From positions 4,092,001-4,156,000 of the forward strand of contig NZ_CP107819.1 in the NCBI RefSeq assembly GCF_036346295.1: DNA of 64,000 nt, read 5' to 3'. The notes under the pieces were generated by a model. That model was not told where the DNA came from and did no database searches. It saw only the letters and a list, made by a program, of their open reading frames with translations. The DNA is from Streptomyces sp. NBC_00536. Its GTDB lineage: Bacteria > Actinomycetota > Actinomycetes > Streptomycetales > Streptomycetaceae. Of the stretch, positions 22,243-37,023 are shown in pieces. The first letter of the stretch is position 1. Each line of letters opens with the position of its first letter. A program made the translations under genes and the position numbers.

Positions 22243-23589
22243 CTACAGACCCCGCAGCAGGACCGCCGGAGACTCCACGCAGTCGGCGACGTACCGCAGG
22301 AAGCCGCCCGCCGCACCGCCGTCGCACACCCGGTGGTCGAAGGTGAGGGAGAGCTGTACGACCTTGCGCACCGCCAGCTCGCCCTCGTGCACCCACGGCT
22401 TCGGGATGATCCGGCCCACGCCGAGCATCGCCGCCTCCGGGTGGTTGATGATCGGCGTGGAGCCGTCCACCCCGAACACGCCGTAGTTGTTCAGCGTGAA
22501 GGTGCCGCCGGTCAGGTCGGAGGGGGCCAGCTTCCCGGCCCGGGCCAGCTCGGTCAGCCGCCCGAACTCGGCGGACAGCGCCTCCGCGTTCATCGCCTGC
22601 GCGTCCCTGACCACCGGGACCATCAGTCCCCGCTCGGTCTGGGCCGCGAAGCCCAGGTTCACCGAGGTGAGCCGGACGATCTCGTTCGCCTCCAGGTCCA
22701 CCCGGGAGTTCAGCTCCGGATGGCGGGCGAGCGCGGCCGTGCAGATCCGGGCCAGCAGGGCCAGTACCGAGATCTTCGGCCCGCCCACGGCGTTCATCGC
22801 GGCCCGGGCCGCCATCAGCTCGGTGGCGTCCGCGTCCACCCAGCAGGTGGCGTCGGGAATCTCCCGGCGGCTGCGCGAGAGCTTCTCGGCGACGGCCCCG
22901 CGCAGACCCTTGAGCGGAATCCGCTCCCCCGCGGGAGAGCCGACGGAGCCCGCGGAGGGACGTACGGACGTCACGCCCGCCGCCGGGGCCGCGACCGGCT
23001 CCGGCGCCCGCAGCGCCGCCTCCACGTCCGCGCGCAGGATCAGCCCCTCGGGCCCCGATCCGTTCAGGGCGCGCAGGTCGACCCCGTTGTCCCGGGCCAG
23101 CTTGCGCACCAGGGGCGAGATCACCGCGACCGGCCCGACGGGCACGGGAGCGACGGCGACGGGCACCGGAGCGACGGCCACCGGGGCCGCCGGGGCGGCC
23201 CGGGTTACGGGCGTCGCCGCCGGGCGGATCCGGCGCCGACGCGCCGGGCGCGAGTGGTCCGTCCCGTATCCGACCAGCACGTTCCCCGATCCCGACGCGG
23301 ACTCCGTTTCCGGCTCCGCCTCGGCAGGGGCCGGCGCGGTGCCCGTGCCGACCGCCACGGTGATCAGCGGTGCGCCCACGGGCAGTTCGCTGCCCTCCTC
23401 ACCGAACCGGGCGGTGACCACGCCCCCGTACGGGCAGGGCACCTCGACCATCGCCTTGGCCGTCTCGACCTCGACGACCACCTGGTCCACGGCGACCACG
23501 TCGCCCACGGCGACCAGCCAGCGCACGATCTCGGCCTCGGTCAGTCCCTCACCGAGGTCGGGCAGCTTGAACTCCATCACCTGGGCCAT
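22243..23589 (-). CDS. bkdC: Branched-chain 2-oxoacid dehydrogenase E2, operon 2
   Basis: The 448-aa E2 has an N-terminal lipoyl domain with the modified lysine in EVETAKAMVEV (about K45), a flexible linker and a subunit-binding domain (VRKLARDNGVDLRALNGSG). The acyltransferase core has its active-site motif as LTFDHRVCDGG (His about 418). It is shorter than the operon 1 copy, mainly in the linker. The ATG at 23589 shares one base with the E1 beta stop codon (TGATG), so the two are coupled. An ATG at 23577 (MEFKLPDLGEG) is a possible internal start. Again no E3 gene is nearby, so both complexes must borrow E3 from elsewhere. Confidence 0.92.
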   Translation of the reverse strand: MAQVMEFKLPDLGEGLTEAEIVRWLVAVGDVVAVDQVVVEVETAKAMVEVPCPYGGVVTARFGEEGSELPVGAPLITVAVGTGTAPAPAEAEPETESASGSGNVLVGYGTDHSRPARRRRIRPAATPVTRAAPAAPVAVAPVPVAVAPVPVGPVAVISPLVRKLARDNGVDLRALNGSGPEGLILRADVEAALRAPEPVAAPAAGVTSVRPSAGSVGSPAGERIPLKGLRGAVAEKLSRSRREIPDATCWVDADATELMAARAAMNAVGGPKISVLALLARICTAALARHPELNSRVDLEANEIVRLTSVNLGFAAQTERGLMVPVVRDAQAMNAEALSAEFGRLTELARAGKLAPSDLTGGTFTLNNYGVFGVDGSTPIINHPEAAMLGVGRIIPKPWVHEGELAVRKVVQLSLTFDHRVCDGGAAGGFLRYVADCVESPAVLLRGL

Positions 23590-24611
23590 CAGTTCTCCCA
23601 CTGCAGGCGAGCCACGGTGTCCAGGATCCGGTCCACGCCGGGCAGGTGGTGCTTCTCCAGCATCGGCGGCGGATACGGGATGTCGAATCCCGTCACCCGC
23701 AGCACCGGCGCCTCCAGGTGGTGGAAGCAGCGCTCCATGATCCGCGCCGCGATCTCCGCACCGGGGCCGCCGAAGCCGTTCGCCTCGTGGACCACCACCG
23801 CGCGTCCGGTCCGGCGCACCGCCGCGACCACCGTCTCCTCGTCGAAGGGCACCAGCGAGCGCAGGTCCAGCACTTCCAGGTCCCAGCCCTCCTCGCGGGC
23901 CGCCTCGGCCGCCTCCAGGCAGACCGGCAGCGAGGGCCCGTAGGTGATCAGGGTGGCGCTCGTGCCCGCCCGGCGGACCAGCGCCTTGCCGATGCCGGGG
24001 ACCGCCGTGGGCGCCTCGGGCGACCAGTCGGCCTTCGACCAGTACAGCCGCTTGGGCTCCAGGAAGATCACCGGGTCGTCGCTGGCGATCGCCGCCCGCA
24101 TCAGCCCGTACGCGTCCTCCACGGTCGCCGGGGTCACCACGTGCAGCCCCGGGGTGGCCAGGTAGTACGCCTCGGAGGAGTCGCTGTGGTGCTCGACCCC
24201 GCCGATGCCGCCGCCGTAGGGCACCCGGATGGTGATCGGCATCGGCATCGCACCGCGCGTGCGGTTGCGCATCCGCGACACGTGCGAGATCAGCTGCTCG
24301 AACGCCGGGTAGGCGAAGGCGTCGAACTGCATCTCGACCACCGGCCGCAGCCCGTACATCGCCATGCCCACCGCGGCGCCCAGGATCCCTGCCTCCGCGA
24401 GCGGGGTGTCCGTACAGCGGTCCTCGCCGAACTCCTTCACGAGGCCGTCCGTGATCCGGAAGACCCCGCCCAGCGCGCCGACGTCCTCGCCCATGACGTG
24501 CACGGTCGGATCCTCGGCCATCGCGTCGCGCAGCGCCCGGTTCAGGGCCTGCGCCATGGTCGCGGGCTTCGCCGCCGCCTTGCTCACCGGCTTCGCCGCC
24601 ACCGTGGTCAT
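23589..24611 (-). CDS. bkdB: Branched-chain 2-oxoacid dehydrogenase E1 beta subunit, operon 2
   Basis: The 340-aa subunit carries the same landmarks as its operon 1 paralogue: ALNRALRDAMAEDPTVHVMGEDVGALGGVFRITDGL (read in two parts), PYGGGIGGVEHHSDSSEAYY, VIFLEPKRLYWSK and DLRSLVPFDEE. A Lys/Ala/Pro-rich extension of about 18 residues precedes the conserved domain. Its ATG overlaps the E1 alpha stop (ATGA). With E1 alpha it decarboxylates branched-chain 2-oxoacids from valine, leucine and isoleucine. Confidence 0.92.
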   Translation of the reverse strand: MTTVAAKPVSKAAAKPATMAQALNRALRDAMAEDPTVHVMGEDVGALGGVFRITDGLVKEFGEDRCTDTPLAEAGILGAAVGMAMYGLRPVVEMQFDAFAYPAFEQLISHVSRMRNRTRGAMPMPITIRVPYGGGIGGVEHHSDSSEAYYLATPGLHVVTPATVEDAYGLMRAAIASDDPVIFLEPKRLYWSKADWSPEAPTAVPGIGKALVRRAGTSATLITYGPSLPVCLEAAEAAREEGWDLEVLDLRSLVPFDEETVVAAVRRTGRAVVVHEANGFGGPGAEIAARIMERCFHHLEAPVLRVTGFDIPYPPPMLEKHHLPGVDRILDTVARLQWEN

Positions 24612-25744
24612 CCTTCGGCCCCCGCTTCCAGTTCGGCGCGCAGCAGCGCGGCCTGCTCCCGCAGCCGGTCGGTCTGCTCCGCGTAGACGTGCGCGAAGAG
24701 GTCCATCGGGTCGAGGACCGGATCGGCGTTCATTCCCTCGCGCAGCGCCGCCGCCATCACCTCGGCCGCGTCCTTGGCCTGCTGGATGCCCTCGGCGTCC
24801 AGCAGACCGCGGGCGGTCAGCTCGCGCTCCAGCAGCTCCACCGGGTCGTGCGCCTTCCAGGCCGCCACCTCGGAGTCCTCCCGGTAGCGGGTGGCGTCGT
24901 CGGCGTTGGTGTGCGCTTCCATCCGGTACGTGACGGCCTCGACCAGGGTCGGACCGCCGCCCGCGCGGGCCCTGCGGACCGCCTCGGACAGCACCTCGTG
25001 AACGGCGGCGATGTCGTTGCCGTCGACCAGCCGGCCCGGCATCCCGTACCCGACGGCCTTGTGGGCCAGGGTCGGGGCGGCCGTCTGCTTGGCGAGCGGG
25101 ACGGAGATCGCGAAGCCGTTGTTCTGGACGAGGAAGACGACCGGGGCCTTCCAGACGGCCGCGAAGTTCAGCGCCTCGTGGAAGTCGCCCTCGCTGGTGC
25201 CGCCGTCGCCGACCATGGCCAGCGCCACGACGTCGTCACCGCGCAGCCGCGCCGCGTGCGCCAGGCCGACCGCGTGCGGCAGCTGGGTGGCGAGCGGGGT
25301 GCACAGCGGGGCTATCCGGTGCTCGCGCGGGTCATACCCGGTGTGCCAGTCGCCGCGCAGCAGCGTCAGCGCCTGGACCGGGTCCAGCCCGCGGGCCACG
25401 GCCGCGAGGGTGTCGCGGTAGCTGGGGAAGAGCCAGTCCCGCTCCTCCAGGACCAGCGCGGCCGCGATCTCGCAGGCCTCCTGGCCCACGGTGGACGGGT
25501 ACACCGCGAGCCGGCCCTGCCGGGTCAGCGCGGTGGCCTGGGCGTTGTAGCGGCGTCCGCGCACCAGCTCGGCGTAGCACCGGCGCATCAGCTCCGGGTC
25601 GAGCTTCTCCGCCGCCGGGGTGCCCAGCACCCGGTACGGCTCGGGGTCCGGGAGCAGCGGGGCGGCATCCGTACGGGGCCTCCAGGCGGGCGGCGGGGTG
25701 GGACGGTGGGACGCACCGGCACCGGGCAGCTCTTGGACCGTCAT
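24608..25744 (-). CDS. bkdA: Branched-chain 2-oxoacid dehydrogenase E1 alpha subunit, operon 2
   Basis: The 378-aa subunit has the thiamine-diphosphate motif GDGGTSEGD with QNN about 20 residues later, STVGQEACEIAAAL and LFPSYRDT. I chose the ATG at 25744 because AGGAGG lies 11 nt upstream. The GTG at 25756 directly abuts that site and is less likely. It heads the second bkd operon, divergent from the Lrp-type regulator gene bkdR. The 178-bp gap holds two palindromes and a TetR-type operator shared with the phenylacetate genes. Confidence 0.92.
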   Translation of the reverse strand: MTVQELPGAGASHRPTPPPAWRPRTDAAPLLPDPEPYRVLGTPAAEKLDPELMRRCYAELVRGRRYNAQATALTRQGRLAVYPSTVGQEACEIAAALVLEERDWLFPSYRDTLAAVARGLDPVQALTLLRGDWHTGYDPREHRIAPLCTPLATQLPHAVGLAHAARLRGDDVVALAMVGDGGTSEGDFHEALNFAAVWKAPVVFLVQNNGFAISVPLAKQTAAPTLAHKAVGYGMPGRLVDGNDIAAVHEVLSEAVRRARAGGGPTLVEAVTYRMEAHTNADDATRYREDSEVAAWKAHDPVELLERELTARGLLDAEGIQQAKDAAEVMAAALREGMNADPVLDPMDLFAHVYAEQTDRLREQAALLRAELEAGAEG

Positions 25745-25791: not shown

Positions 25792-25805
25792 GTGAGGCGC
25801 CTCAC
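25792..25805. promoter_or_regulatory. Perfect 14-bp palindrome near the bkdA2 start
   Basis: GTGAGGCGCCTCAC is a perfect palindrome located 48-61 bp upstream of the bkdA2 ATG, just downstream of its candidate -10 element. It could be an operator or a 5'-UTR hairpin. Confidence 0.5.
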
Positions 25806-25832
25806 CTACCGATTGTTCGGTTTGCCGCGCAA
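25803..25832 (-). promoter_or_regulatory. bkdA2 promoter region with TetR-type operator and BkdR-like palindrome
   Basis: ACCGATTGTTCGGT (25808-25821) has the same perfect arms (ACCGA/TCGGT) as the two operators before the paa genes and differs from them only in the 4-bp spacer. It lies between a minus-strand TTGCGC (25826-25831) and TAGGTG (25803-25808) that could be -35 and -10 elements. Overlapping it is TTGC-CGC-GCAA (25822-25832), a short palindrome of the kind Lrp/AsnC proteins bind, and thus a candidate BkdR site. Confidence 0.6.
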
Positions 25833-25922
25833 TTTGGCTACAGGCAGCTCCAGGCTGTGGACAAAGTGGCGCCGGGGCCCTGGGATGGATGCAGGACGTC
25901 CAGAAGAGGGAGGCATCGGGCA

Positions 25923-26516
25923 ATGCCGGATGAACAAATGGCCGGACCGGGCTGCGCACCGGCCGCCCCGGGGGGCCCCGTGCCCCCGACGGCGCAGCCC
26001 GCCACGCCCGCCACCGCGCAGCCCGCGGCGGCGCCACGCCCCCTGGACCCGATCGACCGGTCGATCCTGCGACTGCTCCAATCGGACGGCCGCGCCTCGA
26101 TACGGTCGGTGGCCGAGCAGGTCCACGTCTCGCGCGCGAACGCCTACGCGCGGATCAACCGGCTGATCGACGACGGGGTCATCCGGGGGTTCACGGCCCG
26201 CGTGAACCACGAACGCGCAGGTCAGGGCGCCTCCGCCTATATCACGCTCAAGATCGTCCAGAATTCCTGGCGGACCGTCCGCGAGCAGCTGCGCGAGCTG
26301 CCGGGGGCCGTCCACATCGCGCTGGTCAGCGGGGACTTCGATGTGCTCCTGCTGGTCCACACGCCCGACAACCGCACCCTGCGCGAGTTGGTCCTGACCC
26401 GGCTCCAGTCCATCCCCGAGGTGCTCTCGACCCGCACCCTGCTGGTGTTCGAGGAAACGGATCTGCTGGCCCCGGGCACGGACCACGACGGCCCGGCCCT
26501 CACCCCGGAGGAGTGA
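25923..26516 (+). CDS. bkdR: Lrp/AsnC-family regulator BkdR
   Basis: The 197-aa protein has an Ala/Pro-rich N-terminal extension of about 38 residues, then the AsnC helix-turn-helix (LDPIDRSILRLLQSDGRAS, VSRANAYARINRLIDDGVIRGF). A RAM ligand-binding domain follows (ASAYITLKIV, REQLRELPGAVHIALVSGDFDVLLLVH, EVLSTRTLLVFEE). Its divergent position beside the bkdA-B-C genes matches the known BkdR arrangement, where branched-chain amino acids modulate bkd expression. The ATG at 25923 has GGGAGG 9 nt upstream. Its stop codon lies inside a long hairpin shared with the convergent TetR gene. Confidence 0.9.
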   Translation: MPDEQMAGPGCAPAAPGGPVPPTAQPATPATAQPAAAPRPLDPIDRSILRLLQSDGRASIRSVAEQVHVSRANAYARINRLIDDGVIRGFTARVNHERAGQGASAYITLKIVQNSWRTVREQLRELPGAVHIALVSGDFDVLLLVHTPDNRTLRELVLTRLQSIPEVLSTRTLLVFEETDLLAPGTDHDGPALTPEE

Positions 26517-26527
26517 GGGCCGGGCCG
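26489..26527. terminator. Bidirectional terminator overlapping the bkdR stop codon
   Basis: Positions 26489-26503 and 26513-26527 form a perfect 15-bp GC-rich stem with a 9-nt loop. The stem includes the bkdR TGA. It lies 14 bp from the convergent TetR gene end, so it probably stops transcription from both sides. Confidence 0.75.
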
Positions 26528-26540
26528 GAGGCCGTACCGC

Positions 26541-27128
26541 TCAGGAGAGCGTGCGCAGGCCGCCGAAGGCCATCCGGACGACCGCGTCCGCCAGCTGGTC
26601 GCGGTCGCCGCCGGAGTGCGGGCGGTACCACTCGACCAGCGAGTTCACCATGCCGAAGAGCAGCCGCGTGGCGAGCCGCGTGTCGACGTCGGAGCGCAGG
26701 TCGCCGTCGGCGGCGGCGGCCTTCAGCAGGTCGGCGACCTGGTGGTCGAACTCGCGGCGCCGCTCCAGCGCCCAGCGCTCGGTACGGGTGTTGCCGCGGA
26801 CCCGCAGCAGCAGGGTGACGTACGGGAGTTCCGCGACCAGCACCTCCACCGTGCGCCGCGTGACGTACTCGACCCGCTCCACGGCCCGGCCGCGCACCGC
26901 GCCCGGCTCCTCCAGGACGGCGAACAGCCCGTCCAGGGCCCGGCTGACGGCCCGGCGCAGCAGCTCTTCCTTGCCCGCGACGTGGTGGTAGATCGAGGAC
27001 TTGGAGATTCCGGCGGCCTTGGAGAGGTGCTCCATCGAGGTGCCGTCGTAACCGCGCTCGTTGAAGACCTGCACGGCGACGGTCAGCAGGGTCTCCGGGG
27101 TGTACGTGTCCCGCCTGGCGGTGGTCAT
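26541..27128 (-). CDS. TetR-family regulator, probably PaaR-like
   Basis: The 195-aa protein has a TetR helix-turn-helix (TPETLLTVAVQVFNERGYDGTSMEHLSKAAGISKSSIYHHV, read in parts) and a helical ligand domain (LVEWYRPHSGGDRDQLADAVVRMAFGGL). Its ATG overlaps the stop codon of the upstream 3-hydroxyacyl-CoA dehydrogenase gene (ATGA), so it is in the same transcript. The adjacent paa genes and the repeated ACCGA-N4-TCGGT operators suggest it represses phenylacetate catabolism and responds to a CoA thioester such as phenylacetyl-CoA. That ligand is inferred from known PaaR proteins. Confidence 0.85.
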   Translation of the reverse strand: MTTARRDTYTPETLLTVAVQVFNERGYDGTSMEHLSKAAGISKSSIYHHVAGKEELLRRAVSRALDGLFAVLEEPGAVRGRAVERVEYVTRRTVEVLVAELPYVTLLLRVRGNTRTERWALERRREFDHQVADLLKAAAADGDLRSDVDTRLATRLLFGMVNSLVEWYRPHSGGDRDQLADAVVRMAFGGLRTLS

Positions 27129-28669
27129 GCCCCGTCCTCCGCGTCGGCGGACTCCGCCCCGACACCCTCGGCGTCGGTCGCGTAACCCAGCCGGTAGAGG
27201 GCGAGCGAGGGCGCGTAGCGGCCGCCGGGGCAGCGCTCGTCGAGGTGGTGCAGGAGGTCGTAGGCCCAGTCCTGGCCCAGCTCCGCGTGCCATTGCGAGG
27301 GCCCGAGCGGGTAGTTGACGCCGAGCCGCATCGCGGTGTCGATGTCCTCGGCCGTGGCCACGCCGCGCGCGACCGCGTCGGCCGTGAGGTCGATCAGCAT
27401 CGCGACGGTACGGGCGACGATCATGCCCGGGACGTCGCCGATGACGGAGACCTCCTTGCCCAGCTTCTGGAACAGGCCGATGGCCTCGGCGAGGGTCTCC
27501 TCGGAGGTGTCCTCGCTGGCGGAGAGCGCGATCCGGGTGGCCCCGCGGTAGTCGAGCGCGAGGTCGAAGTAGACGACGTCGGCAAATTCGACCGAGGTCT
27601 TGCCGTCGGCCAGGACCAGCTGGCCCTCACCGGGCAGCTGGATGTACGGGCCCCCGGTCGCGGCGACGGTGACCGTGATCCCGGCCTCCTCCATCAGGTC
27701 GACCAGCACGGCCGCGGGACCGAGGTCGCCGACGACGCTCACCGTGTCGGGGCACGCCTCGGGCCCGGCGGTGTGCGGCTTCGCGGCCTGCGGTCCCTGC
27801 TCCTCGCCGTACGGGAACCAGCCGTGCCCCGACTTGCGGCCGAGGCGGCCCGACTGGACCAGGCGGCGCTGGGCGAGCGAGGGCGTGAACTTCGGGCTGC
27901 GGAAGAAGGACTCCCAGACGGAGCGGGTGACCGCCTCGTTGACGTCCTGGCCGATCAGGTCGGTCAGTTCGAAGGGGCCCATCTTGAAGCCGCCGCTCTC
28001 GCGCAGCACGGCGTCGATGGTGGCGGGGTCGGCGCCGCGCTCCTCGTACACCGCGAAGGCCTCGGCGTAGAAGGGGCGGGCGATCCGGTTGACGATGAAG
28101 CCGGGGGTGTCCGCGCAGCGGACCGGGGTCTTGCCCCAGCCCAGGACCGTCTCGTACGCGCGCTCCGCGGCCGCCGGGTCGGTCGCGAAGCCGCTGACCA
28201 CCTCCACCAGCGGGAGCAGCGGGGCCGGGTTGAAGAAGTGCAGGCCGAGGAATCGGCCGGGGTGCGCGAGGCCCGCCGCGATCTCGGTGACGGAGAGGGA
28301 GGAGGTGTTCGTCGCCAGCAGCGCGTCCGGCGCGACCACCTTTTCGAGGGAAGCGAACAGCGCGCGCTTGACGCCCGCGTCCTCGACGACGGCCTCGATC
28401 ACCAGGGCGGCCCCGGCGAGGTCGGCGAGGGCGTGGGCCGACTCGATCCGGCCGATCGCGGCGTCCGCCTCGGCTCGATCCAGCCGCCCCTTGGCGGTCA
28501 TCCGCTCGATCCGGTCCCGCACCGCGGTGCGGCCCGCGCGGGCGGCCGCCTCGTCGATGTCGTAGATCAGCACCCGGTGACCTGCGAGAAGGGCGACCTG
28601 TGCGATGCCCTGGCCCATGGTGCCGGCACCGACGACCGCCACAGTGCGGGAGCGCTCGATTGCTGTCAT
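27125..28669 (-). CDS. paaH: 3-hydroxyacyl-CoA dehydrogenase (PaaH/FadB2-like)
   Basis: The 514-aa NAD-dependent enzyme opens with a Rossmann motif (VAVVGAGTMGQGIAQVALLAGHRVLIYD, read in parts). It has the catalytic-domain signatures NTSSLSVTEIA, RFLGLHFFNPAPLLPLVEVV and DTPGFIVNRIARPFYAEA, and a second C-terminal 3HCDH domain (PGMIVARTVAMLIDLTADAV, GVNYPLGPSQW). The length of about 510 residues, with a reduced Rossmann-like insert between the two C-terminal domains, is typical of PaaH/PaaC. In phenylacetate breakdown PaaH oxidises 3-hydroxyadipyl-CoA. The ATG at 28669 has GGGAGGA 7 nt upstream. It is divergent from paaN and shares its operator. Other 3-hydroxyacyl-CoA substrates are possible. 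Confidence 0.88.
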   Translation of the reverse strand: MTAIERSRTVAVVGAGTMGQGIAQVALLAGHRVLIYDIDEAAARAGRTAVRDRIERMTAKGRLDRAEADAAIGRIESAHALADLAGAALVIEAVVEDAGVKRALFASLEKVVAPDALLATNTSSLSVTEIAAGLAHPGRFLGLHFFNPAPLLPLVEVVSGFATDPAAAERAYETVLGWGKTPVRCADTPGFIVNRIARPFYAEAFAVYEERGADPATIDAVLRESGGFKMGPFELTDLIGQDVNEAVTRSVWESFFRSPKFTPSLAQRRLVQSGRLGRKSGHGWFPYGEEQGPQAAKPHTAGPEACPDTVSVVGDLGPAAVLVDLMEEAGITVTVAATGGPYIQLPGEGQLVLADGKTSVEFADVVYFDLALDYRGATRIALSASEDTSEETLAEAIGLFQKLGKEVSVIGDVPGMIVARTVAMLIDLTADAVARGVATAEDIDTAMRLGVNYPLGPSQWHAELGQDWAYDLLHHLDERCPGGRYAPSLALYRLGYATDAEGVGAESADAEDGA

Positions 28670-28691
28670 GACCCGATCCTCCCGCACCGAC

Positions 28692-28700
28692 TTATCCACA
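28692..28700 (+). other. Consensus DnaA box in the paaH-paaN intergenic region
   Basis: TTATCCACA is an exact match to the classical DnaA box. It lies 17 bp upstream of the paaN -35 element. A single isolated 9-mer may be chance, but the window holds a cluster of the same boxes at 57.2 kb. Confidence 0.4.
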
Positions 28701-28716
28701 GGTCTGCCGGGCCCTC

Positions 28717-28744
28717 TTGTCCCGACCGATCGTTCGGTTACTCT
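28717..28744 (+). promoter_or_regulatory. paaN promoter with TetR-type operator in the spacer
   Basis: TTGTCC (28717-28722) and TACTCT (28739-28744) are spaced by 16 bp. The palindrome ACCGATCGTTCGGT (28725-28738) fills the spacer exactly, the classic position for a repressor. It is the exact reverse complement of the operator before paaA (33352-33365). The site also lies 56 bp upstream of the divergent paaH-tetR transcript, so it may control both directions. Confidence 0.75.
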
Positions 28745-28851
28745 AACTCCAGTCTGCTCTTCCCCGCCCTTCCTTGCCCGATCCGCTTGCCGATCCGCTC
28801 AACCGATCCGCTTGTTCGATCCCGCCCGGCTCAACGAGGAGTTGGTCCCAG

Positions 28852-30534
28852 ATGGCCGCCGCGCTCACCGTCCCCCAGCTGTCCGAGAAGCACCGGACCA
28901 CCCTCGACCAGGCGCTGGCGGCCATCCGTAGCCGTGCCTACTGGTCCCCGCACCCCGAACACCCCAAGGCCTACGGCGAGAACGCGGCGGCCGAGGGCCT
29001 CGCCGCCTTCGAGGCCGTCCGCGGCACCCGCTTCGACCTGGGCCAGCCCGGCACCGACGGCTGGGCGGGCGGCGAGGTGTCGCCGTTCGGGCCGGAACTG
29101 GGCGTCGAGTACCCCCACGTCGACCCGGACGTGCTGCTGCCGGCCATGAAGGCGGGCATGGGCGCGTGGCGCGACGCGGGGCCCGAGGCGCGCGCGCTCG
29201 TCTGCATCGAGATCCTGGCCCGGATCGGCGCCCGGACGCACGAGTTCGCGCACGCGGTCATGCACACCAGCGGCCAGGCCTTCATGATGGCGTTCCAGGC
29301 GGGCGGCCCGCACGCCCAGGACCGCGGCCTGGAGGCCGTGACCTATGCGTACGAGGAGCAGACCCGGGTCCCGGGCCAGGCCGACTGGTCCAAGCCGCAG
29401 GGCAAGAAGGACCCGCTGGAGCTGGGCAAGACCTTCACCGCCGTGCCGCGCGGCATCGCGCTGGTCATCGGCTGCAACACCTTCCCCACCTGGAACGGCT
29501 ACCCGGGCCTGTTCGCCTCCCTGGCCACCGGCAACCCGGTGCTGGTCAAGCCGCACCCGCGGGCCGTACTGCCGCTCGCGCTCACCGTGCGCGTGGCGCG
29601 CGAGGTCCTCGCCGAGGCGGGCTTCGACCCCAACCTCGTGGCGCTGGCCACCGAGAACCCCGGTGAGGGCATCGCCAAGACGCTCGCGGTCCGCCCCGAG
29701 ATCAAGGTGATCGACTACACCGGCTCCACCGCCTTCGGCGACTGGCTGGAGACCAACGCCCGCCAGGCGCAGGTGTACACGGAGAAGGCCGGGGTCAACA
29801 CGGTCGTCCTCGACTCCACCGACAACTACAAGGGGATGCTGGGCAACCTGGCCTTCTCGCTCTCCCTCTACAGCGGCCAGATGTGCACCACCCCGCAGAA
29901 CCTGCTGATCCCGCGCGACGGCATCGCGACGGACGCGGGCCACAAGTCGTACGACGAGGTCGTGGCCGACCTGGCCCGCCAGGTCGAGGGACTGCTGGGC
30001 GACGACGCCCGGGCCAACGCGCTGCTGGGCGCGCTGGTCAACCCGGACGTGAAGGCGCGGCTGGAGGCGGCGGCCGGGCTCGGCGAGGTCGCGCTGGCCT
30101 CGCGCGAGGTCGCCAACCCGGAGTTCCCGGACGCGGTCGTCCGTACGCCGGTGATGGTCAAGCTGGACGCGGCCAAGGACGACCCGGAGGCTGCGTACCT
30201 GTCGGAGTGCTTCGGGCCGGTCTCCTTCGCGGTGGCCGTCGACTCGACCGCCGCCGCGCTGGAGCTGCTGCGGCGCACGGTGCGGGAGAAGGGCGCCATG
30301 ACGGTCGGCGCCTACACCTCCTCGGCCGACACCGAGCGCGCCATCGAGGAGGTCTGCCTGGAGGAGTCCGCGCAGCTCTCCTTGAACCTGACGGGCGGGG
30401 TCTTCGTCAACCAGACCGCCGCCTTCTCCGATTTCCACGGCTCGGGTGGCAACCCGGCCGCTAACGCCGCTCTGTGCGACGGGGCGTTCGTGGCCAACCG
30501 CTTCCGGGTGGTGGAGGTGCGCCGCCAGGCCTGA
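28852..30534 (+). CDS. paaN: Phenylacetate degradation aldehyde dehydrogenase PaaN
   Basis: The 560-aa protein belongs to the aldehyde dehydrogenase superfamily and matches stand-alone PaaN. Motifs are GIALVIGCNTFPTWNGYPGL, PVLVKPHPRAVLPLAL, the nucleotide-fold TGSTAFGDWLE, and the catalytic cysteine in SGQMCTTPQN. It is thought to oxidise the ring-opened aldehyde formed after epoxyphenylacetyl-CoA isomerisation, the job done by the dehydrogenase half of E. coli PaaZ. The ATG at 28852 has GAGGAG 10 nt upstream. It is not followed by paaABCDE directly: three unrelated minus-strand genes intervene, yet the operator is shared. Confidence 0.9.
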   Translation: MAAALTVPQLSEKHRTTLDQALAAIRSRAYWSPHPEHPKAYGENAAAEGLAAFEAVRGTRFDLGQPGTDGWAGGEVSPFGPELGVEYPHVDPDVLLPAMKAGMGAWRDAGPEARALVCIEILARIGARTHEFAHAVMHTSGQAFMMAFQAGGPHAQDRGLEAVTYAYEEQTRVPGQADWSKPQGKKDPLELGKTFTAVPRGIALVIGCNTFPTWNGYPGLFASLATGNPVLVKPHPRAVLPLALTVRVAREVLAEAGFDPNLVALATENPGEGIAKTLAVRPEIKVIDYTGSTAFGDWLETNARQAQVYTEKAGVNTVVLDSTDNYKGMLGNLAFSLSLYSGQMCTTPQNLLIPRDGIATDAGHKSYDEVVADLARQVEGLLGDDARANALLGALVNPDVKARLEAAAGLGEVALASREVANPEFPDAVVRTPVMVKLDAAKDDPEAAYLSECFGPVSFAVAVDSTAAALELLRRTVREKGAMTVGAYTSSADTERAIEEVCLEESAQLSLNLTGGVFVNQTAAFSDFHGSGGNPAANAALCDGAFVANRFRVVEVRRQA

Positions 30535-30552
30535 GCGGCTGCCCACTGGTGG

Positions 30553-31329
30553 TCAGGCTTTCGGGCCGCCCCAGTGAAAGAGGGTCATGGCCACACTGGT
30601 GGCGAGGTTGTAGCTGGAGACCTGCGGACGCATCGGCAGGGACACCAGGTGATCGGCCCGGGCGCGCAGCTCGGGCGAGATGCCGTGGCGTTCCGAGCCG
30701 AAGGCGAGCAGGGCGTCGTCCGGGAGGGTGAGGGCGCGGATGTCCTCGCCCTCCGGGTCGAGCGCGTAGAGCGGCCCGGGCGGCAGCTCCTCCAGCTCCA
30801 GCCGGGCCACCGCCGTGGCGTAGTGCAGTCCGGCGCCCGCCCGGACCACGTGCGGGTGCCAGGGGTCGAGATCGCCCCGGGTCACCACCCCGGTGGCGCC
30901 GAAGCCCGCCGCGAGCCGGACGACCGCGCCGACGTTGCCGAGGTTGCGGGGGTTGTCCAGGACCACCACGGGCGCGCTGCGGGGCGTACGGCCGAGCGCG
31001 GCCAGCAGGGCCTCCCGGTCCGGACGTACGGCGAGGGCCGCGACCCCGGTCGGGTGCACGCGCGCCACCAGCTCGCGCAGCGGCGCCTCGCGCACGAGGC
31101 CGTCCAGGGCGTCCCGGACGTCCGGTGCCAGCTCCCCGGCCAGCTCCAGCAGCGCCCGGCGGTCCTCGGCGACGGCCACGGTGACGTCCGCGCCGAAGCG
31201 CACGGCGTGCTTGAGCGCGTGGAAACCGTCGAGGAGGACCAGCTCCTCCCGCCCGGCGGCCTCCCGCCACCGCCGTACCGCCTCGGCCGAGGCCACGTCC
31301 ACCGTCCCGGCCGTCTTTTCGCTGCTCAT
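30553..31329 (-). CDS. SpoU/TrmH-family RNA 2'-O-methyltransferase
   Basis: The 258-aa protein carries the three SPOUT knot motifs: VVVLDNPRNLGNVGAVVRLAAGFGATGVV, LLAFGSERHGISPEL and VSLPMRPQVSSYNLATSVAM. The N-terminal half (EELVLLDGFHALKHAVRFGADV) resembles the substrate-binding region of tRNA/rRNA ribose methyltransferases. The AdoMet-dependent target nucleotide is not deducible. It lies between paaN and the HTTM gene on the minus strand, apparently unrelated to the catabolic genes around it. Confidence 0.88.
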   Translation of the reverse strand: MSSEKTAGTVDVASAEAVRRWREAAGREELVLLDGFHALKHAVRFGADVTVAVAEDRRALLELAGELAPDVRDALDGLVREAPLRELVARVHPTGVAALAVRPDREALLAALGRTPRSAPVVVLDNPRNLGNVGAVVRLAAGFGATGVVTRGDLDPWHPHVVRAGAGLHYATAVARLELEELPPGPLYALDPEGEDIRALTLPDDALLAFGSERHGISPELRARADHLVSLPMRPQVSSYNLATSVAMTLFHWGGPKA

Positions 31330-31351
31330 GCGGACGACCTTACGGCGCGGC

Positions 31352-32593
31352 TCAGGGTGCGGGCGCGGGCGCGTACTCCTGCTCCCGCCCCGGAGCGGAG
31401 GGCTCCGGGTCCGCGGCGAAGCCCGCGGGTCCGCCCGTACGGCCGCGGCGCAGGGCGCGCGCCCGCGCCCCCAGCCACACCAGGAACACCGTCGGCAGGA
31501 ACACGGCGTCGGCGGCGATCATCGCCAGCGAGAAGAACGGCAGCCCCAGCAGCACCGCGATCCCGGCGTGCTCCAGCATCATCGCGCAGAGCAGTACGTT
31601 CTTGATCCGCCGGTTGAACAGGGTGAACGGGAAGGCGACCTGGACCACGACCGTCCCGTAGGTCAGCAGCATCACCAGGGTCCCGCTGGCCGCGAGCGTC
31701 GCCGACAGTCCGGGCCAAGGGGTGAAGTAGTCCAGCCCCAGCGGGTAGTACAGGGCGGTGCCGTCCTGCCAGCGCGAGCCCTGGATCTTGTACCAGCCCG
31801 CCGTGGCGTAGATCAGGCAGACCTCCGCCATGATCACCAGCAGCCCCGCGTTGTGCAGCAGGTTGGCGATCACGTCCAGGGTCGCGCGCCCCTCGCCCTC
31901 CGGCTCATACCGCTCCACCATCCACCACAGGCCCTGGACCACCCACAGCGTCGCGAACACCGCCAGCCAGCCCGCGCCGACCGCGTCGGCGAAGGCGGCG
32001 TAGGGCAGCGCCAGGCCCAGCAGGCCCCACAGCACCGGCCCGGCGGCCCCGGTGGACGCCGACCCGGTCCGGGCCGCGCGCCGTGCGTCCAGCGACCACA
32101 CCCGCGCGCACCGGGTGAGCACCAGGTAGAGCGCCATCAGGTGGATGACGTTGTCACCGCCGTCGCCCATGAACACGCTGCGGTTCTGCAGCGACAGCAC
32201 CCCGACCATGAAGAGCACGGACATCGCCCGGGTGCGCCAGCCGACCAGCAGCAGCGCGGCCGACCCGAGGGCGAGCGCGTAGACGATCTCGAACCAGAGC
32301 GTCGAATCCGACCACATCAGCACGGTGAAGGCGTGGTTGGAGCCGATCAGCCGCTCGGCCAGCTGCCAGCTCCAGGGCCCGTCGGGACCGTACAGCTCGC
32401 GCCGGTTCGGGAACTCGCGCAGCAGGAAGAGCAGCCAGGTCGTGGAGAAACCGATCCGGACCACGGCGCTCTGGTACGGGCCCAGCGCCTCCCCGGTGAC
32501 CCTCGCCAGCCCGCGCCCCACGGCCGACCGGAGGGCGCTGACGCGGGCGCCGAGGCGGGCTCCGGCACCAGCGGGGGCCGCGGCGGGGCTCAC
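31352..32593 (-). CDS. HTTM-domain (vitamin K-dependent gamma-carboxylase-like) membrane protein
   Basis: The 413-aa protein has roughly eight to ten membrane segments and the HTTM family pattern. These include SAVVRIGFSTTWLLFLLREF at the N-terminus, FMGDGGDNVIHLMALYLVLTRCARVWSLDA, WYKIQGSRWQDGTALYYPLGLDYF, and a segment rich in Met/Ala near the end. It belongs to the superfamily that includes gamma-glutamyl carboxylase, but bacterial members like this have no proven reaction. A short Pro/Glu tail follows. The GTG at 32593 overlaps the stop of the DUF5819 gene (GTGA), so the two proteins are made together and probably act together in the membrane. Confidence 0.85.
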   Translation of the reverse strand: MSPAAAPAGAGARLGARVSALRSAVGRGLARVTGEALGPYQSAVVRIGFSTTWLLFLLREFPNRRELYGPDGPWSWQLAERLIGSNHAFTVLMWSDSTLWFEIVYALALGSAALLLVGWRTRAMSVLFMVGVLSLQNRSVFMGDGGDNVIHLMALYLVLTRCARVWSLDARRAARTGSASTGAAGPVLWGLLGLALPYAAFADAVGAGWLAVFATLWVVQGLWWMVERYEPEGEGRATLDVIANLLHNAGLLVIMAEVCLIYATAGWYKIQGSRWQDGTALYYPLGLDYFTPWPGLSATLAASGTLVMLLTYGTVVVQVAFPFTLFNRRIKNVLLCAMMLEHAGIAVLLGLPFFSLAMIAADAVFLPTVFLVWLGARARALRRGRTGGPAGFAADPEPSAPGREQEYAPAPAP

Positions 32594-33279
32594 ACGGTCG
32601 GCACGGTCCACCACGGCAGCTCCCGGTAGTAGGTCTGGGTGTCGGTCTTCTCCGCGCTCCACTTCGGCGCCGCCACCGAGGTGGTCGCCGAGCGCAGCTG
32701 GATCCGCAGGATCCGGTCCCCGGACCCGGCCCCGGTTCCGCCCCCTTCGGCGGTCAGCCGGGCGACCGCGATCCGCTGGAGGTAGGCCTCGGAGAGCGCG
32801 CCCCGGTCGCCGTTCGGCTTGTTGTCCTCGTCGTGCGAGCCGGTGAAGAAGTCCCAGGCCCGGCGCAGCTCGTTCTGCTGCGTGTGGCTGGGGACCGGGT
32901 TGTGCCGTATCGCGTCGGCGTCCTCGGCGGACAGGTCGCGCCACGCGGTGGTGGTCAGCGCTCCCGCCGCGGTGCGGAGCTGGGCGCGTGCCTCGACGGC
33001 GATGTTCTGCTGGAGCGGGTTCGGCGCGAAGAGCTTCCAGTTCTGTTCGAACTCGGGGTAGATCCAGTCGTCCACCGTGCGCGCGTGCTGCTTGCTGACC
33101 GTGTTCGACGGCGCGACGTGCAGGAACACCAGCGCCAGGTGCCAGCAGGCCGTGACCGCGACGGCGCCCAGCGCCAGGGCCGCGACGACCCGGTACGGGG
33201 TGGACAGACCGGCGATTCCGGGCGCCCGGGGCGGCCGCGCTGCGGGCCTTTCCGCGGCTTCGTGCTCGTTCGAAACCAT
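32590..33279 (-). CDS. DUF5819-family membrane-anchored protein
   Basis: The 229-aa protein has one N-terminal membrane segment (VVAALALGAVAVTACWHLALVFLHVAPSN, residues about 30-58) and a soluble domain facing out. The domain carries the conserved pattern YPEFEQNWKLFAPNPLQQNIAVEARAQL (read in parts), then DAIRHNPVPSHTQQNELRRAW and RILRIQLRS. This matches DUF5819, which is often found beside HTTM proteins. Its role is unknown. The domain may be the partner or substrate of the HTTM protein. I chose the ATG at 33279; an ATG at 33300 is possible. Neither has a clear ribosome-binding site. The start lies 73 bp from the paaA operator, on the other strand. Confidence 0.82.
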   Translation of the reverse strand: MVSNEHEAAERPAARPPRAPGIAGLSTPYRVVAALALGAVAVTACWHLALVFLHVAPSNTVSKQHARTVDDWIYPEFEQNWKLFAPNPLQQNIAVEARAQLRTAAGALTTTAWRDLSAEDADAIRHNPVPSHTQQNELRRAWDFFTGSHDEDNKPNGDRGALSEAYLQRIAVARLTAEGGGTGAGSGDRILRIQLRSATTSVAAPKWSAEKTDTQTYYRELPWWTVPTV

Positions 33280-33351
33280 CCCGCCCCGATCATCGGCCAT
33301 CCACAGAGGTTGACACCCTACGGGCCGTCGTCTCACCATTGAAGGGAATGA

Positions 33352-33365
33352 ACCGAACGATCGGT
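33352..33365. promoter_or_regulatory. TetR-type operator upstream of paaABCDE
   Basis: ACCGAACGATCGGT is the exact reverse complement of the operator at 28725-28738. It lies 37 bp upstream of the paaA ATG and 13 nt minus-one past the end of a possible TTGAAG -35 element (33339-33344), so a bound repressor would block paaA transcription. Confidence 0.75.
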
Positions 33366-33402
33366 CGGTCGGGCGGCAGGGCAACATCGGCAGGAGGCCG
33401 TG

Positions 33403-34398
33403 ATGGTGGCAGTGACCCCGGAGACGGGGCAGGGCGCGGCCCTCGCGGCAGGCCTGACGGAGCAGCTGGTGGCGGCCTTCGAGGCCGCCGTGGCCGCCGA
33501 GGAGCGGGTCGAACCGCGCGACTGGATGCCCGAGGAGTACCGCGCCTCGCTGGTCCGCCAGATGGCGCAGCACGCCCATTCGGAAATCATCGGCATGCAG
33601 CCCGAGGCGAACTGGATCACCCGCGCGCCCTCGCTGCGCCGCAAGGCGATCCTGATGGCCAAGGTGCAGGACGAGGCCGGGCACGGCCTCTATCTGTACA
33701 GCGCCGCGGAGACCCTGGGCACCAGCCGCGACGAGCTGCTCGACAAGCTCCACGCGGGCAAGCAGAAGTACTCCTCGATCTTCAACTACCCCACCCTGAC
33801 CTGGGCCGACGTCGGCGCCATCGGCTGGCTCGTGGACGGCGCGGCGATCACCAACCAGGTGCCGATCTGCCGCTGCTCCTACGGTCCGTACGCCCGGGCC
33901 ATGGTCCGGATCTGCAAGGAGGAGTCCTTCCACCAGCGCCAGGGGTACGAGCTGCTGATGGCCCTCTCGCAGGGCACCGAGGCACAGCACGCCATGGCGC
34001 AGGACGCGGTCGACCGCTGGTGGTGGCCCTCCCTGATGATGTTCGGCCCGCCCGACGACGAGTCGGCGCACTCCGCCCAGTCGATGGCCTGGCGGATCAA
34101 GCGGCACACCAATGACGAGCTGCGCCAGCGGTTCGTGGACATCGCCGTCCCGCAGGCCGAATCGCTGGGCCTGACCCTGCCCGACCCGGACCTGAAGTGG
34201 AACGAGGAGCGCGGGCACCACGACTTCGGCGCGATCGACTGGTCGGAGTTCTGGGCCGTGCTCAAGGGCAACGGCCCCTGCAACGAACAGCGCATCGGCC
34301 AGCGCCGGCAGGCGCACGAGGACGGCGCGTGGGTCCGCGACGCGGCCGCGGCGTATGCGTCGAAGCACACCGCACAGAACGAGGAGGCACGGGTATGA
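33403..34398 (+). CDS. paaA: Phenylacetyl-CoA 1,2-epoxidase catalytic subunit PaaA
   Basis: The 331-aa ferritin-like protein carries the di-iron ligand motifs [13 protein letters not shown] and [11 protein letters not shown]. It also has the family-typical stretches [54 protein letters not shown] and [15 protein letters not shown] (each read in parts). It is the catalytic subunit of the multicomponent oxygenase that converts phenylacetyl-CoA to the ring 1,2-epoxide. AGGAGG lies 5 nt before the ATG at 33403, which favours it over the GTG at 33400. It starts the paaABCDE operon. Confidence 0.95.
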
Positions 34399-34679
34399 CG
34401 CAGAACTGGCCCCTGTGGGAGGTGTTCGTGCGCTCGCGCCGCGGGCTCTCGCACACGCACGCGGGGAGCCTGCACGCCCCCGACGCGGAGATGGCGCTGC
34501 GCAATGCCCGCGACCTCTACACCCGGCGGGGCGAGGGCATCTCGATCTGGGTGGTCCCCTCCGCCGCGGTGACCGCGTCCTCGCCGGACGAGCGGGACCC
34601 GTTCTTCGCCTCGGCCGGGGACAAGCCGTACCGCCACCCCACCTTCTACGACATCCCGGAGGGGGTGCGTCACCTGTGA
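34395..34679 (+). CDS. paaB: Phenylacetyl-CoA epoxidase subunit PaaB
   Basis: The 94-aa protein matches PaaB ([70 protein letters not shown]). PaaB is a small subunit that links PaaA-PaaC heterodimers in the oxygenase. The ATG overlaps the paaA stop codon (ATGA). Confidence 0.94.
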
Positions 34680-35422
34680 CCACCACGTCGCGGACCGACG
34701 CGCCCCGTACGGACCCCGTGCGGGCCGCCGCCCTCGCCCTGGGCGACGACGCGCTGATCCTCTCCCACCGCCTCGGTGAATGGGCGGGCCACGCGCCGGT
34801 CCTGGAGGAGGAGGTCGCCCTCGCGAACATCGCCCTCGACCTGCTCGGCCAGGCCCGGGTGCTGCTCTCCATGGTCGGTGACGAGGACGAGCTGGCGTTC
34901 CTGCGCGAGGAGCGCGCCTTCCGCAACCTCCAGCTGGCCGAGCAGCCGAACGGGGACTTCGCCCACACCATCGCCCGGCAGCTCTTCTTCTCCCTGTACC
35001 AGCAGCTGCTCTTCACCGAACTGGCCGCCGGGGACGGACCCTTCGCGCCGCTCGCGGCCAAGGCCGTCAAGGAGACCGCCTACCACCGCGACCACGCCGA
35101 GCAGTGGACCCTGCGGCTCGGCGACGGCACCGAGGAGAGCGGGCGCAGGATGCGCACCGCCCTGGACTCCCTGTGGAAGTTCACCGGCGAGATGTTCCAG
35201 CCGGTGCCCGGCCTGGAAGTGGACTGGTCCGCCCTGGAAGGCCACTGGCTGGCCGCCCTGGGCGAGGTGCTGGAGCGGGCCGGACTCGCGCTGCCCGAGG
35301 GGCCGCGCACCGGGGCCTGGGCCGCCGGCGCCGGGCGCCAGGGCCTGCACACCGAGACGTTCGGGCGGATGCTCGCGGAGATGCAGCACCTGCACCGCAG
35401 CCACCCGGGGGCGTCATGGTGA
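34676..35422 (+). CDS. paaC: Phenylacetyl-CoA epoxidase structural subunit PaaC
   Basis: The 248-aa ferritin-like protein matches PaaC: LGDDALILSHRLGEWAGHAPVLEEEVALANIALDLLGQAR (read in parts), LFFSLYQQLLFTELA, KETAYHRDHAEQW. It partners PaaA and lacks a working di-iron centre in known complexes. The GTG start overlaps the paaB stop (GTGA). The stop overlaps paaD by 7 bp, keeping the operon tightly coupled. Confidence 0.94.
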   Translation: MTTTSRTDAPRTDPVRAAALALGDDALILSHRLGEWAGHAPVLEEEVALANIALDLLGQARVLLSMVGDEDELAFLREERAFRNLQLAEQPNGDFAHTIARQLFFSLYQQLLFTELAAGDGPFAPLAAKAVKETAYHRDHAEQWTLRLGDGTEESGRRMRTALDSLWKFTGEMFQPVPGLEVDWSALEGHWLAALGEVLERAGLALPEGPRTGAWAAGAGRQGLHTETFGRMLAEMQHLHRSHPGASW

Positions 35423-35910
35423 CCGCGACCCGGCTGGAGGAGGAGCTGTTGGCGCTCGCCGGCTCCGTCCCCGACCCCGAACTGCCCGTGCTCACCCTGA
35501 CCGAGCTGGGCGTGATGCGCGGCGTGCGGATGGGCGAGGACGGGAGCGCCGAGGTCACCCTCACCCCGACCTACACCGGGTGCCCGGCCATCGAGGCCAT
35601 GGCCGCGGACATCGAGCGGGTCCTGCACGCGCACGGCATAGCCGAGGTGAGCGTGCGGACCGTGCTCTCGCCCGCCTGGTCCACCGACGACATCAGCGCC
35701 GAAGGCCGCCGCAAGCTGGCGGAGTTCGGGATCGCCCCGCCCCGGCCGCATTCCGCGGGCGGTCCGGTGCCGCTCACCCTGTCGGTGCGCTGCCCGCAGT
35801 GCGGGTCCACCGACACCGAGCTGCTCAGCCGCTTCTCCTCCACCGCGTGCAAGGCCCTGCGCCGCTGCGTCTCCTGCCGCGAGCCGTTCGACCACTTCAA
35901 GGAGCTGTAG
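35416..35910 (+). CDS. paaD: Phenylacetyl-CoA epoxidase maturation protein PaaD
   Basis: The 164-aa protein has an N-terminal MIP18/DUF59 domain (SVPDPELPVLTLTELGVMRGV, TPTYTGCPAIEAM) and a C-terminal zinc ribbon with four cysteines (RCPQCGSTDTE, then LRRCVSCREPFDHFKEL). PaaD-type proteins help assemble iron centres for the oxygenase or its reductase. It overlaps paaC and abuts paaE. Confidence 0.93.
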   Translation: MVTATRLEEELLALAGSVPDPELPVLTLTELGVMRGVRMGEDGSAEVTLTPTYTGCPAIEAMAADIERVLHAHGIAEVSVRTVLSPAWSTDDISAEGRRKLAEFGIAPPRPHSAGGPVPLTLSVRCPQCGSTDTELLSRFSSTACKALRRCVSCREPFDHFKEL

Positions 35911-37023
35911 ATGACCGCGGCCCGGCACGGCGCCTTCCACTCGCTGACGGTGACGGAGGTCGAGAGGCTCACCGACGACTCGGTCGCGCTCACCCTGCGG
36001 GTGCCGCCGGAGCTGCGCGAGGAGTACCGGCACGCCCCGGGCCAGCACCTGACCCTGCGCCGCCGCCCCGCCGACGGCGCGGAGGTCCGGCGGACGTATT
36101 CGATCTGCTCCCCCGCTCCGGCCGCCGACGGTCCGGGCCCGCAGTGGCTGCGGGTCGGGGTGCGGCTGGTGGAGGGCGGGGAGTTCTCCACCTTCGCTCA
36201 CAAGGAGATCGCCGCGGGTGACGTGCTGGAGGTGATGGTCCCGGCCGGCCGCTTCGTGCTGGACCCGGCCGCTGCCCCGGCCGACGGTCACTACGCCGCC
36301 GTCGTCGGCGGCAGCGGGATCACCCCGGTGCTGTCGATCGCCGCGACCCTGCTCGCCGCCCGGCCGGGCGCCCGGTTCTGTCTGGTGCGCAGCGACCGTA
36401 CGGCGGCCTCGACGATGTTCCTGGAGGAGGTCGCCGACCTCAAGGACCGCTATCCCGAGCGGTTCCAGCTGGTCACCGTCCTGTCCCGGGAGGAGCAGGA
36501 AGCCGGGCTGCCCTCCGGGCGCCTCGACGAGGAGCGGCTGACGGCGCTGCTGCCCGCGCTGCTGCCCGTCGGCGAGGTCGCGGGCTGGTTCCTGTGCGGG
36601 CCGTACGGCCTGGTCCAGGGCGCGGAGCGGGCACTGCGCGGGCTCGGCGTCGAGCGGACCCGGATCCACGAGGAGATCTTCCACGTCGAGGACACCGCCA
36701 CCACCACCGCGACGGGCGCCCCCTCCGGCCCGGCCGGGACGGGCACGCTCAGCCGGGTCACGGCCCGGCTCGACGGCCGCTCGGGCACCTGGCCCGTCCA
36801 GGAGGGCGAGTCCCTGCTGGACGCGGTGCTCCGCAACCGCGCGGACGCGCCGTACGCCTGCAAGGGCGGGGTGTGCGGTACCTGCCGGGCGTTCCTGGTG
36901 ACGGGCGAGGTCCGGATGGACCGGAACTTCGCGCTGGAAGCCGAGGAGACCGAGGCCGGATTCGTGCTGGCCTGCCAGTCGCACCCGATGACGGAGGAAG
37001 TGGAGATCGACTTCGACCGCTGA
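35911..37023 (+). CDS. paaE: Phenylacetyl-CoA epoxidase reductase PaaE
   Basis: The 370-aa reductase starts directly after the paaD stop. Residues 1-110 form a flavin-binding barrel (GQHLTLRR, RRTYSICS), followed by an NAD(P)-binding domain (VVGGSGITPVLSIAATLL, GWFLCGPYGLVQ). The C-terminus is a plant-type [2Fe-2S] ferredoxin domain with cysteines in CKGGVCGTC and later LACQSHP. It passes electrons from NADPH to the PaaA di-iron centre. Confidence 0.95.
   Translation: MTAARHGAFHSLTVTEVERLTDDSVALTLRVPPELREEYRHAPGQHLTLRRRPADGAEVRRTYSICSPAPAADGPGPQWLRVGVRLVEGGEFSTFAHKEIAAGDVLEVMVPAGRFVLDPAAAPADGHYAAVVGGSGITPVLSIAATLLAARPGARFCLVRSDRTAASTMFLEEVADLKDRYPERFQLVTVLSREEQEAGLPSGRLDEERLTALLPALLPVGEVAGWFLCGPYGLVQGAERALRGLGVERTRIHEEIFHVEDTATTTATGAPSGPAGTGTLSRVTARLDGRSGTWPVQEGESLLDAVLRNRADAPYACKGGVCGTCRAFLVTGEVRMDRNFALEAEETEAGFVLACQSHPMTEEVEIDFDR

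Follow-up and report, generated by a model that had tools for sequence, protein, structure and literature searches.

The window analysed here, 64,000 nucleotides of a Streptomyces chromosome (G000:C1:4092001-4156000), carries genes of phenylacetate catabolism (paa) beside a second bkd operon, bkdA2B2C2, labelled as a branched-chain 2-oxoacid dehydrogenase (BCDH), and our subject is a 14-base inverted repeat found in the promoter regions of both, a putative operator of a single TetR-family repressor. The genes stand in the order bkdC2-bkdB2-bkdA2 (minus strand), bkdR (plus), the TetR gene with paaH (minus), paaN (plus), other genes and paaABCDE (plus), and they were assigned as listed below; papers with PMC numbers are cited, here and throughout, for the excerpts available.

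22243-24611, minus strand: bkdB2 (E1-beta) and bkdC2 (E2); the closest NCBIfam models, for pyruvate/2-oxoglutarate dehydrogenase E1-beta and E2, all score below cut-off
24608-25744, minus strand: bkdA2, E1-alpha of a 2-oxoacid dehydrogenase; E1_dh, TIGR03181 above cut-off; named by position, like SCO3831
25923-26516, plus strand: bkdR, Lrp/AsnC-family regulator; HTH_AsnC-type and AsnC_trans_reg; named by its position beside bkdA2, like SCO3832 (PMC12323332)
26541-27128, minus strand: paaR, TetR-family regulator; Pfam TetR_N and TetR_C_24 above cut-off; orthologue of SCO3833 (PDB 2IAI)
27125-28669, minus strand: paaH, 3-hydroxyacyl-CoA dehydrogenase; 3HCDH domains, NF006124 above cut-off, TIGR02279 (PaaH) below its cut-off
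28852-30534, plus strand: paaN; TIGR02288, 975.9 bits, above cut-off
33403-34398, plus strand: paaA; TIGR02156 above cut-off
34395-37023, plus strand: paaB, paaC, paaD and paaE; TIGR02157, TIGR02158, TIGR02159 and TIGR02160 above cut-offs

The NCBIfam label for BkdA2 (24608-25744), through TIGR03181 above cut-off, is pyruvate dehydrogenase E1 alpha subunit, one more name for the same protein. The paaH and paaR frames overlap by 4 bases.

Sites were searched with a loose pattern, ACCGAN4TCGGT, and with a narrower one, ACCGAWYRWTCGGT, which was defined post hoc, once the sites were known. The sites and the candidate promoter boxes of bkdA2 are as follows.

25808-25821, strandless: putative bkdA2/bkdR operator ACCGATTGTTCGGT; exact pattern match
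28725-28738, strandless: putative paaH-paaR/paaN operator ACCGATCGTTCGGT; exact pattern match
33352-33365, strandless: putative paaABCDE operator ACCGAACGATCGGT; exact match, overlapped by a one-mismatch copy at 33356-33369
25803-25808, minus strand: candidate -10 of bkdA2, TAGGTG, read from the sequence; abuts the operator
25827-25832, minus strand: candidate -35 of bkdA2, TTGCGC, likewise read from the sequence; the 18-base spacer contains the operator

A sequence-only reading of this DNA had named these three sites and the TetR gene at 26541-27128, and all were confirmed, the sites by exact match and the gene by its TetR_N and TetR_C_24 domains; ACCGAACGATCGGT also proved to be the exact reverse complement of ACCGATCGTTCGGT, as that reading had it. 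The arms of the bkd site are identical to those of the paa sites, and the centres of the three are similar. A fourth exact match to the loose pattern, with a different centre, lies within the paaE coding sequence (35971-35984), and its 14 bases were found again at a similar place in 12 of 80 Streptomyces loci. With up to one mismatch allowed, the loose pattern matched 11 times in the window versus 2.99 times on average over 100 shuffles, of which one likewise gave 11, while the narrower pattern matched exactly the three operators and gave no match in 100 shuffles. The earlier reading had proposed a genome scan and held that many hits unlinked to these pathways would speak against it, and the scan gave a divided answer. 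The loose pattern occurred at 29 places (6 for the reversed control), 25 of them away from paa/bkd promoters and 21 of these 25 in long open reading frames (ORFs), whereas the narrower, post hoc pattern matched at 4 of the 29, all at paa/bkd promoters, namely the three in the window and one at C1:536646-536659 (L001:1501-1514). This fourth narrow site stands directly before the phenylacetate-CoA ligase gene paaK (TIGR02155 above cut-off), about 3.6 Mb from the window. By the ORF heuristic 22 of the 29 fell within long ORFs and 7 did not, counts corrected to 21 and 8 since it had put the bkd site inside an upstream-extended bkdR frame; for some of the 8, a clear neighbouring gene is lacking on one side or both. 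A large regulon drawn from the loose pattern was rejected, as 21 of the 29 places lie inside long ORFs.

The paaN site fills the spacer between TTGTCC (28717-28722) and TACTCT (28739-28744), and the bkd site shares this promoter position, lying inside the candidate bkdA2 spacer; in both cases the boxes were read by eye. The proposed placing of the paaN site between -35 and -10 accordingly stands for the by-eye boxes, but a strict sigma-70 consensus scan of the bkd and paaN regions called no promoter.

Conservation was assessed in 80 Streptomyces loci, the best 80 of at least 461 confirmed relatives (79 for bkd counts, since L068 stops short of bkdA2), and in 71 loci from other genera (L102-L172), 66 of which were counted for bkd after exclusion of L165, L166, L168, L170 and L172, whose stretches showed no bkdR or no bkdA2; in L171, because its bkdA2 match is partial, 1300 bases upstream were searched. 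The 14 bases between bkdR and bkdA2 were identical in 79/79 Streptomyces loci and in 63 of the 66 counted loci from other genera of the family. The paaN site was identical in all 80 Streptomyces loci, with exact arms in 59/61 loci of other genera, and the paaA site was identical in the 71 Streptomyces loci that reach paaA (71/71), with exact arms in 20/22 of other genera. In a genus sample of 150 genomes, the window's own included, the bkd 14-mer was present once each in 146, with an expectation of about 0.014 copies per genome from base composition; its reversed control gave one match, in G019. Across 143 aligned loci all 14 site columns were invariant, versus 4 of 120 flanking columns, two of which lie on the bkdA2 side, in the candidate -10 (the GG of TAGGTG, columns -3 and -2), and two at a distance, and in the family set, whose 64 rows include one Streptomyces (G089), mean information was 2.00 bits per column in the site and 0.38 and 0.80 in its flanks. 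The bases of TTGCGC varied among loci, unlike the operator. The bkd site is under strong selection, and a chance origin was rejected on its presence in 146/150 genomes, its invariant columns and the lack of narrow matches in shuffles. That the locus was merely inherited as a block, with sites devoid of function, would agree with a gene order mostly unchanged across loci, but in most of the loci compared the site stands anywhere from 29 to 254 bases from the aligned bkdA2 start and its flanks differ, while all 14 bases are retained from genus to genus, and we consider shared ancestry alone extremely improbable.

The TetR protein matched PDB 2iai_A (SCO3833) with an E value of 9e-90, and its helix SKSSIYHHV recurred unchanged in 146 of the 147 copies inspected. 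Its gene adjoins the paa genes, overlapping with paaH, divergent from paaN and about 6 kb from paaABCDE, and ACCGA-N4-TCGGT is present at the paaA, paaN/paaH and paaK promoters. Given this gene context, these operators and the mention of a Streptomyces pristinaespiralis PaaR in a review, the gene product is probably PaaR. Entry 2IAI is titled merely putative transcriptional regulator and appears to be the solved PaaR structure; no pertinent publication on it was found in the literature, judged by titles. In one Streptomyces group (L046, L057-L060, L062-L066 and others) no paaH was found beside PaaR, and the operator lies 68-103 bases ahead of the paaR start.

PaaR of Burkholderia cenocepacia (BCAL0210) is likewise a TetR repressor, whose 15-bp inverted repeat ACCGACCGGTCGGTT has the arms ACCGA/TCGGT and is located between -35 and -10, with paaA, paaH and paaZ as targets (PMC2770484, PMC9493321); it differs in that the repeat was concluded to be specific to phenylacetate clusters, no 2-oxoacid dehydrogenase target being named in the excerpts of that paper (PMC2770484). 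In actinomycetes, PaaR of S. pristinaespiralis (SSDG_03033) and of Corynebacterium glutamicum are TetR repressors of paa genes, and a table of the review gives AACGA-N4-TCGGT as a putative site of an actinomycete PaaR, but bkd control goes unmentioned in the excerpted text (PMC10933834). The paa half of our finding is already known, as PaaR operators with these arms in Burkholderia and as PaaR in S. pristinaespiralis (PMC2770484, PMC9493321, PMC10933834). The new part is the bkd site, and it is not an accident. The literature found, which did not cover Zhao 2015, reportedly the original work on S. pristinaespiralis PaaR (SSDG_03033), or Sprusansky 2005, said with Denoya 1995 to be a source cited for the BCDH label in Streptomyces, gave no instance of bkd genes described as controlled by PaaR, nor of a phenylpyruvate role for bkdA2B2C2. 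The novelty that the sequence-only reading had seen in PaaR-like control of bkd genes is upheld for this half within that literature, but not for the paa-promoter operators and a Streptomyces PaaR, both known. Its simplest reading, one repressor (of PaaR type) for all three sites, is supported.

The occurrence of the bkd site was then compared with that of PaaR. Among the genus genomes, 146 of the 147 with PaaR had the site, the exception (G010) reading N at the promoter, and 0 of the 3 without PaaR at the threshold used (G001, G037 and G121) had it; G001 and G121 were without a close BkdA2 and without a paaA match; G037 carries paaA, and its BkdA2 is divergent (63%). A Fisher test of PaaR against the site was given no weight, as the genomes are related and two of the three negatives lack a close BkdA2. 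The 3 of 66 other-genera loci without the site belong to G158, G184 and G168. G158 has kept bkdR and bkdA2, but no copy of PaaR or paaA passed the thresholds there; in G184 all that was seen of PaaR is a fragment at the edge of a contig. Outside the family, the bkdR-bkdA2 pairs of L197, L201, L202 and L203, whose BkdR has diverged (45-59%), showed no such site at bkd; thus, a BkdR neighbour alone does not bring the site. In the family sample of 91 genomes, PaaR was found in 84, paaA in 86 and bkdA2 in 85, all three in 83 and none of them in four, and in many family genomes paaABCDE lies elsewhere, with PaaR remaining beside bkdR-bkdA2. Twenty relocated paaA copies were selected by choice from those away from PaaR, and 19 of them, all but that of G160, had within the 300 bases upstream a site whose arms carry no more than one mismatch; among control windows, drawn from the same loci and so including true sites, 1407 of 20000 had one.

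The same genome encodes a second, clearly separate E1 type, to which the window's BkdA2 is 42% identical; the two fall into separate clades (support 100/100).

5410-6387, no strand given: bkdA1 (by position), second E1 type; no pattern match near it

The long-branched L187 (36%) in the E1 tree was left without interpretation. In L101 (G121:C141) two divergent bkdA1-type bkd operons are adjacent; close BkdA2, paaA and PaaR are all lacking from this genome.

Three family genomes (L189, L190 and L195) have BkdA2-type bkdABC genes lined up with paaA and its partners, and a fourth (L188) has them lined up with paaN and a paaH-like gene, the paaN of these contexts being 58-59% identical to the window's PaaN. 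In L189 (G230) an aminotransferase (PRK03321 above cut-off), a PaaN-like gene (TIGR02288 just below cut-off), bkdR (minus strand), bkdA, bkdB and bkdC are followed by paaN, a thiolase, an enoyl-CoA hydratase, a paaH-like gene, a second hydratase/isomerase and paaABCD; the best models for the thiolase, 3-oxoadipyl-CoA thiolase, are below cut-off and a general thiolase model is above. L190 (G178) has bkdABC, paaN, thiolase, sequence without assignment, paaH-like gene and paaABC, and L195 (G037) has bkdABC, enoyl-CoA hydratase/isomerase and paaABCDE. L188 (S. virginiae, G232) has aminotransferase, PaaN-like gene, bkdR (minus strand), bkdABC, paaN, sequence without assignment and paaH-like gene, and its stretch ends before any paaA. 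The aminotransferases beside the bkd clusters of L188 and L189 are both of the PRK03321 type, and no paaK was found in the L188, L189, L190 and L195 stretches. A one-mismatch PaaR-type site stands just ahead of paaN in L188 (14553) and L189 (12057), clusters with two PaaN-like genes. A third S. virginiae E1-alpha (62% to BkdA2) was considered as PglB and rejected, as it is part of the second bkdR/bkdABC/paaN cluster. PglB/PglC of pristinamycin synthesis form a pyruvate-dehydrogenase-like complex said to convert phenylpyruvate to phenylacetyl-CoA (PMC7089894); they are a precedent for the 2-oxoacid dehydrogenase step, but are biosynthetic and belong to an antibiotic cluster under PapR2.

The gene context of a phenylpyruvate dehydrogenase was thus found in BkdA2-type kin (L188, L189, L190 and L195), and the window's operon adjoins the paa locus and shares its operator type. 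The link between phenylacetate and branched-chain 2-oxoacid catabolism put forward in the sequence-only reading holds as far as the shared PaaR-type operator goes, but its branched-chain side took the bkd label at face value, and the neighbourhoods of the kin suggest that this enzyme type may serve in the phenylacetyl-CoA pathway. In a class sample of 164 genomes outside the family, 35 had a BkdA2-type E1 and 69 had paaA (both 23, E1 only 12, paaA only 46, neither 83), a loose association above independence (Fisher 0.002, relatedness not corrected), and the two lie within 30 kb of each other only in G261 and G236.

We propose PaaR (26541-27128) as the repressor for which all three sites are operators. 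As long as inducer is absent, its dimer would sit in the promoters of paaABCDE, paaN, paaH-paaR (self-control), paaK and bkdA2B2C2, and perhaps of bkdR, and would block RNA polymerase; at bkdA2 the operator would fill the TTGCGC-TAGGTG spacer, touching TAGGTG, and at paaN the TTGTCC-TACTCT spacer. Phenylacetyl-CoA, the PaaR inducer in other bacteria, would release it. Both the steric block and the release are carried over from work on PaaR elsewhere (PMC2770484, PMC9493321). The bkd operon would belong to the PaaR regulon because its complex, for all its branched-chain name, produces or is able to produce phenylacetyl-CoA straight from phenylpyruvate, to which phenylalanine is transaminated; PaaK forms this thioester from free phenylacetate. 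Both entrances would then be opened by PaaR together with the pathway, as a feed-forward loop, and an aminotransferase, the 2-oxoacid dehydrogenase and the phenylacetyl-CoA pathway would carry phenylalanine to central metabolism without free phenylacetate.

A number of observations weigh against this proposal, some of them bearing on binding. G168 has PaaR (61%) beside bkdR-bkdA2, a good paaN site and a near-site at paaA, and no bkd site; thus, PaaR is not sufficient for the site. L196 (G261), with a 61% PaaR-like gene and near-sites by paaA, has no site at its bkd genes 15 kb away, and three bkdA2-like copies without an adjacent bkdR (L165, L168 and L170, outside the 66) are without it too. 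Moreover, constraint is tighter on the bkd site than on the paa sites, a difference for which binding of PaaR does not account by itself: the bkd centre, TTGT, is invariant and was not found among the counted paaN and paaA sites, whereas the paaN sites of other genera have four different centres. Both the centre and the extra constraint would suit another reader, a different TetR protein or BkdR, of a site that only resembles a PaaR operator; the arms, however, are identical to those of PaaR operators, the site adjoins paaR, and it is missing both from G158, where bkdR and bkdA2 are kept without PaaR, and from the four outside-family pairs. We therefore regard another reader as quite improbable, and BkdR in particular is disfavoured, on few cases (G158 and the outside-family pairs). 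The exceptions, few of which are informative, suggest that the bkd site needs PaaR, though PaaR alone does not bring it. From the sequence evidence, PaaR very probably binds the bkd site, and by analogy it likely acts there as a repressor with phenylacetyl-CoA as inducer.

The other counterpoints concern the substrate. The window has no aminotransferase of the L189 type. The paa-embedded E1s, with those of G168 and G184, form a group of their own (100/97) beside, not inside, the window's group, so that transfer of their substrate to the window's enzyme is an inference. Outside the family, 12 of the 35 E1-bearing genomes had no paaA match, including all 8 of family f18; as these and G158 keep bkdA2 without paaA, the E1 type cannot serve phenylacetate alone everywhere, and the BkdA2-type enzyme has, or can have, another substrate. 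In the excerpted literature, bkdA2B2C2 or the target of BkdR is treated as branched-chain catabolic (PMC13033682, PMC8176718). S. coelicolor, for which two bkd clusters are described (PMC13033682), has the same operon with the same neighbouring regulator (SCO3829-3831 and BkdR, SCO3832), but the regulators named for it in the excerpts are BkdR and a predicted MtrA site, not PaaR. Upon Lon overexpression in this species bkdA2B2C2 rose up to 20.6-fold, for which repressor loss by proteolysis is one possible explanation (PMC13033682).

PaaR might repress the second bkd operon while the complex is a true BCDH, the link coordinating CoA-ester catabolism or precursor supply across pathways. The naming and treatment of the operon as BCDH in the Streptomyces literature excerpted here and the genomes without paaA argue for this, the separate bkdA1 type in the same genome, free of pattern matches nearby, and the BkdA2-type genes in line with paa genes argue against it, and we hold it to be rather unlikely. 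We give an even chance to phenylpyruvate as the physiological substrate of the window's own BkdA2B2C2. The sites, their conservation and the gene neighbourhoods are established, and the explanation as a whole, a PaaR regulon that includes bkdA2B2C2 since its complex yields phenylacetyl-CoA, appears reasonably likely. A bolder version is tentative and somewhat less than evenly balanced: bkdA2B2C2 would be mislabelled and be (mainly) a phenylpyruvate dehydrogenase, a phenylalanine entrance held by PaaR in a feed-forward loop, and the operator would be a composite element, frozen as both PaaR operator and part of the bkdA2 (perhaps bkdR) promoter. That such a composite element caused the frozen bkd centre is our guess.

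The gene paaR has been linked to pristinamycin I before (PMC10933834). A PaaR operator at the second bkd operon, frozen across most of the family, says when this operon may be used, and suggests what it is for, namely phenylacetyl-CoA from phenylalanine. Antibiotics are built from phenylacetyl-CoA and branched acyl-CoAs, among others, so that paaR would offer an easy means of adjusting the supply of such precursors.

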